From: Candidatus Altarchaeum sp.
GTDB taxonomy: Archaea > Altiarchaeota > Altiarchaeia > Altiarchaeales > Altiarchaeaceae
Direction of reading: 5' to 3'
Length of the DNA stretch: 8,350 nucleotides
Assembly (NCBI GenBank): GCA_018260755.1
Contig: JAGTWP010000057.1
Location: 1-8,350 of the forward strand
The translations under genes and the position numbers were made by a program. Numbering within the stretch: the stretch's first letter is position 1; the number at the start of each line of letters is the position of its first letter. Below are positions 2,959 to 8,350 of this stretch, one piece after another. The notes beneath the pieces are model-generated. The model had not been told where the DNA came from, did no database searches, and saw only the letters and a program-made list of their open reading frames with translations.

Positions 2959-3534
2959 ATGGTATTTATTGGTGATTATATTGGCACGATAGAAGAATTT
3001 ATTCCCGAAGACGGAACTTATGTTGAAGACGGGAAAATTTATGCCGCAGTCATGGGTGATTTAAAGCAAAATGATGAGAGAAAAATTGTCTTTAATATGA
3101 AACTTCCGCGGCTCAGGGTTGGAAGCATAGTATTGGCAGAGATTACAGATGTGAGAAATAACAGTGCGACCGCAAAAATAATTAAATTTTTAGGATACAA
3201 ACAAAATGTCTTTGTTTCTGCTGGTATTTTTGTCTCGCAAATTTCCGATGAGTATGCCGATAAGGTAAGCAGTTTTTTGGGTGTCGGAGATATAGTTAAA
3301 GCAAAAATTGTCAGAAATGAGAAAAATTTAATAGACCTTTCAACAAAGGGAAATTTCGGAGTTGTTAAAGCGTTTTGTAAGGTATGCAGACACGAATTGA
3401 TATTAAACAAAGAGAAAATCGGTTCTAAGTCCTTAATATGTCCTAACTGTAAGGGAGCGGAAACAAGAAAGATAGCAAGTGATTACGGAGATGTTAAAGA
3501 TGTTTTTTACAGCCACCCCAAAAATCACATGTAA
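2959..3534 (+). CDS. csl4: Exosome RNA-binding subunit Csl4
   Basis: Cap subunit of the archaeal exosome, which binds RNA and helps feed it into the Rrp41/Rrp42 ring for 3'-5' degradation or tailing. From the ATG at 2959 the protein has 191 residues, in line with archaeal Csl4. The N-terminal domain has the family-like GDYIGTIEEFIPEDGTY (5-21). An S1 RNA-binding domain spans about 55-130, with VGSIVLAEITDV and VGDIVKAKIV strands. A C-terminal zinc ribbon uses C140, C143, C161 and C164 (two CxxC pairs). The frame can be extended to a TTG at 2917, but the extra 14 residues are hydrophobic and unlike the family, and they start 9 bp after the ahaH stop, so the ATG is preferred. It ends just before the hairpin array. 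Confidence 0.92.
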   Translation: MVFIGDYIGTIEEFIPEDGTYVEDGKIYAAVMGDLKQNDERKIVFNMKLPRLRVGSIVLAEITDVRNNSATAKIIKFLGYKQNVFVSAGIFVSQISDEYADKVSSFLGVGDIVKAKIVRNEKNLIDLSTKGNFGVVKAFCKVCRHELILNKEKIGSKSLICPNCKGAETRKIASDYGDVKDVFYSHPKNHM

Positions 3535-3547
3535 TTTAAAAATTTTT

Positions 3548-3819
3548 AGATTTTTAAAGATTGAAAATCTTGCGTATTTTCAGTAATTTTTTGAAAATTT
3601 CGTATGTATTAAAAAATATTTGAAATATTTTTTAAGATTGAATATTTATTTATAAATTTTCAGTAAAATTTTGTCACCTCACTTCGTTCGGAGATTTACA
3701 AAATGCTTTGCATTTTGTAAGATTGAAATCAAAAGATTTCAGTATTACAAAATGTTCCAAACATTTTGTAAGATTGAAATCAAAAGATTTCAGTATTTCA
3801 AAATTCCATTTTGAAAATA
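3548..3819. repeat. Ordered stem-loop array between convergent genes
   Basis: Four modules share the frame AAGAT, stem-loop, GTA. Their stems are TGAAAAT/ATTTTCA (3562-3582), TGAA.ATTTAT/ATAAAT.TTCA (3639-3662) and TGAAATC/GATTTCA (3724-3741 and again 3775-3792). Between and after them lie other hairpins: AATTTT/AAAATT (3585-3599), AAAAAATATTT/AAATATTTTTT (3611-3633), TTACAAAATGC/GCATTTTGTAA (3696-3720), TTACAAAATGTT/AACATTTTGTAA (3745-3771) and TTTCAAAAT/ATTTTGAAA (3796-3816). Stem sequences differ but pairing is kept. The array sits between the ends of csl4 and the CBS gene, so it may act as a two-way transcript end, a 3'-UTR structure or a REP-like element. Confidence 0.8.
3711..3797. repeat. 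36-bp perfect direct repeat within the hairpin array
   Basis: Bases 3711-3746 are identical to 3762-3797, a 51-bp period. Each copy spans the 3' arm of one hairpin, the AAGAT linker, the TGAAATC/GATTTCA stem-loop and the AGTATT linker. It looks like the most recent duplication of a module in the array. Confidence 0.9.
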
Positions 3820-3821
3820 CT

Positions 3822-3913
3822 CTCTGAATAGTTTGTATATTAATAACCACAATGTATTAATATATACTAATAATAATAATGTATTAATATAGATTTAATA
3901 CCTCTGAATAGTT
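3822..3913. repeat. 12-bp direct repeats flanking an AT-rich segment
   Basis: CTCTGAATAGTT occurs at 3822-3833 and 3902-3913, 80 bp apart. Inside, AATGTATTAATATA occurs twice (3851-3864 and 3878-3891), and TATATTAATA at 3836-3845 is inverted at 3882-3891. This fills the gap between the hairpin array and the end of the CBS gene. No gene is seen here. Confidence 0.6.
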
Positions 3914-3920
3914 ACAAAAT

Positions 3921-4286
3921 TTATCTTAGTAGTGCTTTGACAATATCTTTCATTGTGATTATACCTATACATGCTCCGTTGCTTATTACAGGCAATCTTC
4001 TTATATCTTTTTCAATCATAATTTTTGCCGCCTTTTCAACAGAAACATAAGGATCTACCTGAATGATTTCCTCATGCAGTATCTTTTTCACGGATGAATT
4101 TAAAGGAATATTTTTCTGGATTGCTCTTAAAATATCCTTTTCAGTTAAAATACCTCTTATTATGTCTTCTTTCATAACTAAAACCGCCCCTATATTTTCC
4201 TTTGTCATTAAGTCCGATGCTTCCTGTATGGTTGATTCTGGCTTTACCGAATGAATTTTCCTGTTCACTATTGATATTACTTCCAT
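3921..4286 (-). CDS. CBS-domain pair protein
   Basis: A stand-alone tandem CBS (Bateman) module of 121 residues. Such modules bind adenosine nucleotides or related ligands and regulate partner proteins. CBS1 spans about 1-57 and contains TIQEASDLMTKENIGAVLV, followed by GILTEKDILRAI (45-56). CBS2 spans about 64-121 with VEKAAKIMIEKDIRRLPVI (83-101) and GIITMKDIVKAL (108-119). There is no extra catalytic, DNA-binding or membrane domain, so the partner cannot be read from the sequence. The ATG at 4286 has a TATA-like ATTTAATAAA (minus strand) about 29 bp upstream and no Shine-Dalgarno sequence, consistent with a leaderless mRNA. It is divergent from pyrH across 151 bp and convergent with csl4. 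Joint control with pyrH is possible but not shown. Confidence 0.9.
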   Translation of the reverse strand: MEVISIVNRKIHSVKPESTIQEASDLMTKENIGAVLVMKEDIIRGILTEKDILRAIQKNIPLNSSVKKILHEEIIQVDPYVSVEKAAKIMIEKDIRRLPVISNGACIGIITMKDIVKALLR

Positions 4287-6852: not shown

Positions 6853-7659
6853 TTAGGCTGTTCCGGTAGGTTGTTGCTCGGAAGGTGTCCGTGTTGATTG
6901 CTCTGCTGATTGTTGATTATTGGATGGATGAGGTGTTTCTGAAGGTAAATTTTCCTGTACGGGGGTTGTAGAGGTTGTTTCTGTTGCAGGTGTTTCGGGA
7001 GTACTTGTTTCTGTTGCAGGTGTTTCGGGAGTACTTGTTTCTGTTGCAGGTGTTTCGGGAGTACTTGTTTCTGTTGTTCCAGTAATAGGTATTAATTGCA
7101 GGACCTTCATGTTTCTTATTTCAACCCTTCTTACAGGTGCAATTGTCTTTAAATTTTTAAAAATTTCAACATTTGTCCTTCCGGAAATAACAAGTTCCAA
7201 AAAATTGTGCATCCCTTCGTTCTTATAATAATCTAAAACCACAGGTATTCTTTTTATCATATCTCCTTTTTGAGATGCATGAATTTTATATGCGGTAAGT
7301 ACATTCACCGCAAGCTTTATATCAGCATCCTTTAATTTAACAATGTATGGCTGATCTATTACAGTATGTCCAGGGATAATCCTGCTCATTAAATATTTTC
7401 TATCTACTTTCAATGTATCAAACATAGTCAATGCCCTGTCTCCTTTTACTTCGTATATCTTAAATATTACATTCACATGCTGCTTTTGTTTATCCTGGGT
7501 AATATCTCTGATAGAGTACTTAATTTTTCTGTTAATTAAATTTCCCGGATCTGATGAGATAACCAATCCCATCTCCTTGGATCCAAAATTTTCCGGAAGT
7601 ATAATTTTATACTTTTTCTTTAATTTCCACTTATCTTTTTTTCCAAATGCTTTTGCCAT
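6853..7659 (-). CDS. rps3ae: Ribosomal protein eS1 (S3Ae) with a Thr/Pro/Glu repeat tail
   Basis: Small-subunit ribosomal protein eS1, present in archaea and eukaryotes and located near the mRNA exit region. Residues 1-190 are the family core: the basic start MAKAFGKKDKWKLKKKYKI, LPENFGSKEMG (21-31), DITQDKQKQHVNVIFKIYEV (52-71), GDRALTMF (73-80) and PVRRVEIRNMKVLQL (175-189). Archaeal eS1 normally ends near here. This protein continues for about 75 residues of disordered sequence (193-268) containing three perfect TSTPETPATE repeats, then a Gln/Ser/Thr/Pro-rich end. The tail has no lysine and is acidic, unlike a typical ribosomal protein tail. The ATG at 7659 has a TATA-like TTTAAAATATAAG about 26 bp upstream and no Shine-Dalgarno sequence. 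It is divergent from the gene at 7777. Confidence 0.93.
   Translation of the reverse strand: MAKAFGKKDKWKLKKKYKIILPENFGSKEMGLVISSDPGNLINRKIKYSIRDITQDKQKQHVNVIFKIYEVKGDRALTMFDTLKVDRKYLMSRIIPGHTVIDQPYIVKLKDADIKLAVNVLTAYKIHASQKGDMIKRIPVVLDYYKNEGMHNFLELVISGRTNVEIFKNLKTIAPVRRVEIRNMKVLQLIPITGTTETSTPETPATETSTPETPATETSTPETPATETTSTTPVQENLPSETPHPSNNQQSAEQSTRTPSEQQPTGTA
6975..7076. repeat. 30-bp tandem repeat, 3.4 copies, in the eS1 gene
   Basis: Three identical 30-bp units (6975-7004, 7005-7034, 7035-7064) and 12 bp of a fourth. The period is a multiple of three, so each unit adds ten residues (TSTPETPATE in one phase) without shifting frame. Perfect identity suggests recent slippage expansion. Confidence 0.97.
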
Positions 7660-7776: not shown

Positions 7777-8350
7777 ATGTATGTCCTCTTTTGTGCATCT
7801 GCGGACTTAAAGGATGCAAAATATATTAGAAAAGGTAGTAAAAATTTATTGCAGATGAAATTTGGAATCTGCGATACATTAGCAATGTGCGGAAATGTTG
7901 TTGATTGCAAGAGAACAAAATTCGGAGTTATGCTAACCTTAAATGACGGTGAAATTTTTGTGATTACAGCAGGAACATTTAATAAAAATGCCCTGCAGGA
8001 TGCGGATAATGTTTTACAAAAATTTTCTGGAGGAAATAAAGAAATTTATTTATTGCTCTATGTAAATCCTTTTTACAGAGGGGCAATTTATTTAAACGCA
8101 AATCAGGATTACAGCGTAATTGAAGTTACAAAACAAATTTATGAAAAATTTCATGAAATAAGAAAAAAAGGACTTACATATTTGATGGAAAAATTTAACA
8201 AAAATATGGTGTCTGAAAAAGAAAAAGCAAAAAAAGAGAAGGAAGAAAGAGAGACAAAAGAAGAGAAGAAAGAAAGAGAGACAAAAGAAGAGAAGAAAGA
8301 AAGAGAGACAAAAGAAGAGAAGGAAGAAGGAGAGACAAAAGAAGAGAAGA
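7777..8350 (+). CDS. Unrecognised protein, possible OB fold, with Lys/Glu repeat tail (partial)
   Basis: The frame opens at ATG 7777 and runs without a stop to the window edge (191 codons, 3' end missing). Residues about 25-118 alternate short hydrophobic strands with glycines and turns: ICDTLAMCGNVVDC, FGVMLTLNDGEIFVITAG, KEIYLLLYVN and GAIYLNANQDYSVIEVT. This looks like a small five-strand OB-type barrel and loosely resembles RPA-associated OB proteins of archaea, but no diagnostic motif is present. A helix follows (about 117-140), then a highly charged tail of 9-residue repeats, ETKEEKKER, probably a long single helix or coiled coil. Cysteines at 6, 32, 38 and 44 are not spaced like a zinc finger. 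No Shine-Dalgarno sequence precedes the ATG. It is divergent from the eS1 gene. Function is unknown; single-stranded DNA or RNA binding is a guess. Confidence 0.75.
   Translation, partial: MYVLFCASADLKDAKYIRKGSKNLLQMKFGICDTLAMCGNVVDCKRTKFGVMLTLNDGEIFVITAGTFNKNALQDADNVLQKFSGGNKEIYLLLYVNPFYRGAIYLNANQDYSVIEVTKQIYEKFHEIRKKGLTYLMEKFNKNMVSEKEKAKKEKEERETKEEKKERETKEEKKERETKEEKEEGETKEEK
8251..8350. repeat. 27-bp tandem repeat at the right edge
   Basis: Units start at 8251, 8278, 8305 and 8332; the first two are identical, the third differs at its 3' part, and the fourth is cut by the window edge. Each unit encodes nine residues (ETKEEKKER or ETKEEKEEG). The period is a multiple of three and keeps the frame open. 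Confidence 0.95.

Follow-up and report, generated by a model that had tools for sequence, protein, structure and literature searches.

The ordered array of alternating hairpins that fills the gap 3′ of csl4 in the window (the whole 8,350-nt stretch of Candidatus Altarchaeum sp. DNA analysed here) very probably consists of three levels of nested mobile DNA, a reading that leaves aside the enzymology by which the smallest units move. At the first level, a transposase-less MITE of the IS66 family (TIR GTAACTATTCAG..., 8-bp duplication) would have integrated at the 3′ end of csl4, displacing the stop codon of that gene. At the second level, pairs of hairpins that we designate doublets would already have entered the MITE at short target motifs (GTA or GTAA here; CTCA and ACAA elsewhere), and further doublets would next have inserted tandemly behind the GTA end of a preceding doublet to generate the ordered alternation of stems. 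At the third level, doublets would insert into one another's loops. Because the doublets are present about 100 times per genome and insert at precise points, we attribute the pairing of their stems to selfish mobile DNA and not to a conserved RNA belonging to the neighboring genes.

The array and the csl4 locus

The gap that contains the array is flanked by csl4 (+ strand, stop at 3532–3534), whose product matches Pfam ECR1_N, and by a CBS-domain gene on the − strand (stop at 3921). Four B hairpins (3559–3585, 3636–3665, 3721–3744, and 3772–3795) with three distinct stem sequences share the frame (A)AGAT-TGAAnn...nnTTCA-GTA. The palindromes that precede them (3535–3558, 3609–3635, 3696–3720, and 3745–3771) and the final palindrome of the array (3796–3817) differ in sequence, yet their pairing is intact. 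An earlier note on this DNA had described a four-module AAGAT-stem-GTA frame, differing stems and intervening hairpins that all remain paired, and a position between two convergent genes, each of which is borne out by the sequence and its fold. It had also located the array correctly, although its limits of 3548–3819 are slightly short of the full unit, which extends from 3510 to 3915. Folding of both strands, a check proposed in that note, gave RNA structures over 3535–3920 that are far better than those of shuffled sequences (z = −9.1 for the + strand and −7.3 for the − strand; none of 100 shuffles equals it). Folded doublet by doublet as single-stranded DNA, the array yields z values from −3.8 to −8.8. 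The interval 3535–3915 contains no ORF of at least 60 amino acids.

Elsewhere in the window, a 300-nt direct repeat (1416–1715 and 1775–2074; 99% identity) duplicates the region upstream of cdc6/orc1 together with its first ~46 codons, and ORF 1683–1916 is the truncated copy. Short repeats at 1–153, 6957–7080, and 8221–8350 lie at the C-termini of Cdc6, S3Ae, and the protein encoded at 7777–8349; two of them coincide with contig ends.

The csl4 gene matches, among named genomes, only Candidatus Altarchaeum sp. HURL_140 (90% identity). The array is absent from the homologous csl4 position in two relatives, L112 (90% csl4 identity) and L197 (74%). In L112, csl4 ends with ...GATGTTTTTTAA, and the sequence beyond it is unrelated; the csl4 stop of L112 corresponds to the point of MITE insertion. 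In the second relative, L197 of genome G002, csl4 ends at a nearly matching point and a co-directional gene lies close behind. By eye, we take this gene to be ornithine carbamoyltransferase. The MITE, which begins at 3510, removes the original csl4 stop and adds eight codons (YSHPKNHM) in the window, so that the C-terminus of an exosome gene is here supplied by the end of a mobile element. From the comparison with L112 and G002, the array is therefore an insertion at the locus and does not belong to the conserved sequence of csl4.

The very strong fold on both strands and the position between convergent genes would suit a functional RNA at the locus, and the earlier note had offered a two-way transcription end, a stabilizing 3′-UTR of csl4, and a structured RNA among its candidates. 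We consider this extremely unlikely. The array is missing 3′ of csl4 in L112 and L197, a terminator scan with a bacterial consensus found no terminator-like site, and no Rfam 15 model matched the window; a scan for tRNA and tmRNA gave no match. Furthermore, only 7 of the complete MITE copies could be placed relative to genes, too few for orientation statistics; all 7 lie in tandem or divergent gaps and none in a convergent one.

An IS66-type MITE as carrier

Judged by its sequence, the carrier of the array is a transposase-less, degenerate, and non-autonomous MITE of an IS66-family element. Copies of this MITE are bounded by GTAACTATTCAG and CTGAATAGTTAC. The 12-mer GTAACTATTCAG of the TIR occurs about 97 times without mismatch in the 1.32 Mb of the window's own genome assembly (85% complete) and 120 times with at most one mismatch, compared with 8 occurrences of a reversed control pattern. 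Intact copies recur at lengths of about 101, 158, 203, 244, 288, and 374 bp. The smallest of these MITEs (93–101 bp) are devoid of the array, and the longer forms differ by exact insertions. Perfect 8-bp TSDs flank 10 of 25 complete copies versus 5 of 600 cross-paired controls; with at least 7 of 8 positions matching, the count rises to 13 of 25 (3 with 7/8) versus 18 of 600.

The sister genome G001 contains a full-length IS66 relative of about 1.73 kb (G001:C134:3594–5318) that encodes DDE_Tnp_IS66 (E = 2.6e-22), albeit with in-frame stops in the transposase. Two 361-bp copies in the window's own genome resemble internal-deletion derivatives, and both of their ends match both ends of the G001 element. 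A TIR starting with GTAA is common to the MITE and the IS66-family element. No IS66 transposase was found in the window's own assembly (85% complete). The TIR, the TSD, and the longer relative in G001 point to transposition of the IS66 type. Having lost its left TIR and lacking a TSD, the window copy is assigned to this family by homology, and it is probably immobile.

A second MITE family (TIR GTATTTGTTTAGCT) also carries hairpins of the array type; its 8-bp duplications are perfect in 6 of 21 copies versus 0 of 420 controls. At L050 and L029 (G000:C71 near 64500–64700), the second family is nested within the first.

Exact comparisons of filled and empty sites allow the window array to be read from left to right on the + strand, and its parts are therefore as follows. 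The left end of the MITE (3510–3534, CAGCCACCCCAAAAATCACATGTAA) has lost the outer 9 nt of the TIR and also supplies csl4 with its final codons and stop; in L080, an intact TIR precedes sequence that matches 3510–3534 (GTAACTATTCAGCCACCCCAAAAATCACAGGTAA). Doublet 1 (3535–3585), composed of palindrome A (3535–3558) and GAT-hairpin B-GTA (3559–3585), follows the GTAA of MITE site 1, which is empty in L049 and L062. The MITE core between sites 1 and 2 (3586–3608) matches L062, a minimal MITE of 101 bp. Doublet 2 (3609–3665; 57 nt) follows the GTA of site 2, which is found empty as GAAATTTTCGTAGGTA^AATTTTTGTACCCTCT in L017 with 0 mismatches to the flanks in L056. The C segment (3674–3695, TCACCTCACTTCGTTCGGAGAT), which forms a weak stem, opens a block that interrupts the MITE core between TTTTG and TACCC, as indicated by L069 versus L073. 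The C segment is followed by doublet 3 (3696–3744; 49 nt; covariance-model score 69.4 bits), doublet 4 in tandem to it (3745–3795; 51 nt; 65.1 bits), and the closing palindrome (3796–3817, TTTCAAAATTCCATTTTGAAAA). An inner right TIR (3824–3833, CTGAATAGTT) shares its end with L003, L009, and L077. Finally, a remnant of an IS66 right end (3834–3915, strand not assigned) carries an intact outer TIR (CTGAATAGTTAC) at 3904–3915; its last part, 3876–3915, matches at 88% positions 322–361 of L066, an IS66 deletion derivative, with the TIR exact.

Hairpin doublets as inserted units

A doublet consists of palindrome A joined directly to GAT-hairpin B-GTA and is 47–58 nt long. Alignment of 53 doublets revealed palindromes near both ends and no TIR. 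At MITE site 2, the empty sequence GTAGGTA^AATTTTTGTACCC of L017 is interrupted in L056 by a 57-nt insert (TTAAAAAATATTTGAAATATTTTTTAAGATTGAAAATTTATTTATAAATTTTCAGTA) between identical flanks with 0 mismatches. Similar filled and empty pairs were obtained for MITE site 1 (L084 versus L049), for the second MITE family (L002 versus L034), after the C segment (L107 versus L123 and L006 versus L076), and within the loop of another B hairpin (L110 versus L033 and L005 versus L098), the empty sites being located mostly within other repeats rather than in unique orthologous DNA. The left neighbors of doublets are mostly AGTA (the end of a preceding doublet), GTAA, CTCA, AGAT, GGTA, or ACAA. Target duplication is absent at CTCA sites (L110 versus L033, L005 versus L098), and GTA sites cannot decide the matter because the end of the element is identical to its target there. 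A related 48-nt C-A doublet is inserted in frame in one tnpB gene (L209 at about 1690, − strand, G003:C42), 5 intact paralogues of which have an empty site. This insert ends with TAAAT, like its target, and may have generated a short target duplication.

Host elements of a third kind are formed by a repeat that contains CTCTGTGACTTTGTGGCT / GCTCACACAAAGCCACAAAGTC and into which doublets have inserted (L152, L153, and L146 in G003; L178 in G001). Another dispersed repeat (CGCTCTTATGTTGATTTTCACTGATGGAG...) lies within doublet arrays at L011, L013, L051, and L064 (G000:C2, C63, and C7) and is partly masked as N.

A covariance model of the kind called for by the earlier note detected 88, 91, at least 99, and at least 99 doublets in the four genomes from the genus, whereas 57 other archaeal genomes yielded none. 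The doublet hairpins are a dispersed, genus-specific mobile family. BLAST of 3690–3810 against the window's own genome returned 91 matches, many at contig ends, a clustering that is the sign of a dispersed, assembly-breaking repeat. Two viral contigs with doublet cores turned out to be chance matches in unrelated sequence. The earlier note had staked its reading on further copies in this or related genomes and on paired stems in the homologous gaps of close relatives; copies abound in both, but the homologous gaps are without stems. With about a hundred ~50-nt doublets each and exact empty sites, the four Altarchaeum genomes offer a system for studying the movement of short elements.

Pairing in the doublets is compensated. 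Over the 53 distinct copies, 95.2% of cells are paired versus 83.8% in shuffles, and both sides have changed in 115 cells versus 42. The covariation score, whose observed value is biased upward by sequence relatedness and a hand-given structure, is 0.297 versus 0.102 in shuffles (sd 0.009; 0 of 500 shuffles as high) and at most 0.040 in slid controls. At one position of stem A, all four Watson-Crick pairs are seen. The compensated pairing that led the earlier note to propose selection for structure rather than sequence is therefore real, but selection on RNA need not follow, because DNA hairpins required for transposition, or template-switch repair between the arms of a palindrome, would give an equal pattern. 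This is a warning for covariation-based discovery of RNAs: mobile hairpins can yield true compensatory pairing.

Two other explanations bear on how these features arose. Template switching between arms during replication could convert imperfect into perfect palindromes and thereby maintain the pairing, an account that is compatible with nested mobile DNA. Near-perfect pairing in both palindrome A and hairpin B, while the inner bases of their stems vary freely, fits such a process. We regard it as somewhat doubtful, since the fixed outer frame GAT-TGAAA...TTTCA-GTA around a free inner stem suggests a recognized structure, and template switching alone would not preserve that frame. Alternatively, the doublets may not be independently mobile: after one or a few entries into MITEs, they would have multiplied through transposition of those MITEs, through recombination of one MITE with another, and through slippage within arrays. 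Near-identical doublets occur at matching MITE sites, tandem arrays such as L005 are consistent with slippage, and a search for a doublet transposase found none. However, the unit appears with exact junctions at unrelated places (two MITE sites, the other MITE family, a B loop, and other repeats), and a C-A doublet lies within the protein gene tnpB, all of which makes this explanation unlikely. We favor doublets that insert as units, with their pairing presumably kept because the hairpins act as recognition sites or through template switching between arms.

Candidate movers and known systems

The Y1 transposase PF01797 was not found in G000, G001, G002, G003, or G061 (G003 and G061 are apparently one genome); because these assemblies are 65–87% complete, a missing Y1 or RAYT is no proof of absence. 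TnpB (PF07282), present in G003 and G001, was considered as a source of the doublets and rejected, as its ends (AGTGATTTCGCTTT...) are unlike those of doublets. The lack of TIRs, the two end hairpins, the identity of the element's end with its GTA target, the folding of single-stranded DNA, and insertion into loops suggest a single-strand mechanism of the HUH type, like that of IS200/IS605, PATEs (PMC3119063), and REPINs (PMC3116915). It is tempting to speculate that doublets move as single-stranded DNA hairpins through an HUH (Y1-like) enzyme acting in trans, as do terminal-only derivatives of IS200/IS605; we put this forward tentatively, at less than an even chance. Their target motifs (GTAA, CTCA, ACAA, and AGAT) are looser than is usual for IS200/IS605. 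There is a smaller chance that A-sharing hairpin pairs of about 50 nt, in which the second segment (B, C, or another) is exchangeable, form a superfamily that moves without Y1, through an unrecognized enzyme or host replication. If true, its members would rank with the smallest known mobile units.

Several described systems resemble the array in part. Palindrome-associated transposable elements (PATEs) of Haloquadratum walsbyi include a 52-bp terminal-only form of ISHwa23 (PMC3119063). Like doublets, PATEs lack TIRs and target duplications, have palindromes at their ends, measure about 50 bp, are too short for a transposase, and host further nested insertions (PMC3119063). PATE ends are related to those of a host IS605-type (Y1/TnpB) transposon, whereas here no IS200/IS605 transposase relative was found (PF01797 not found in G000–G003) and TnpB ends differ. 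The doublets also differ in that their palindromes abut without a core, use several target motifs, and form tandem arrays within IS66 MITEs. At the level of titles and abstracts, the literature consulted on Altiarchaeum repeats and archaeal IS66 MITEs contained no description of the doublet family.

The earlier note had also suggested a REP/BIME-like family, which pointed in the right direction insofar as these are dispersed mobile hairpins. REPINs and BIMEs moved by RAYTs (PMC3116915) share with doublets the hairpin pair as replicative unit, high copy number, tandem clusters, and compensatory stem changes. However, REPINs combine two inverted REP hairpins, whereas A and B are unlike in both sequence and stem frame and are not inverted copies, and no cognate RAYT (Y1) was found in these genomes, which are 65–87% complete. 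The M1/M2 repeats of pithoviruses (PMC10664404) are MITE-like palindromic units that alternate in ordered (M1-M2)n-M1 arrays; they differ in their unrelated sequence, larger units, and viral host. The carrier itself resembles IS66-family MITEs in its GTAA-type ends, 8-bp target duplication, internally deleted transposase, and longer homologue in a sister genome, but the window element is made up mostly of hairpin doublets that were inserted later.
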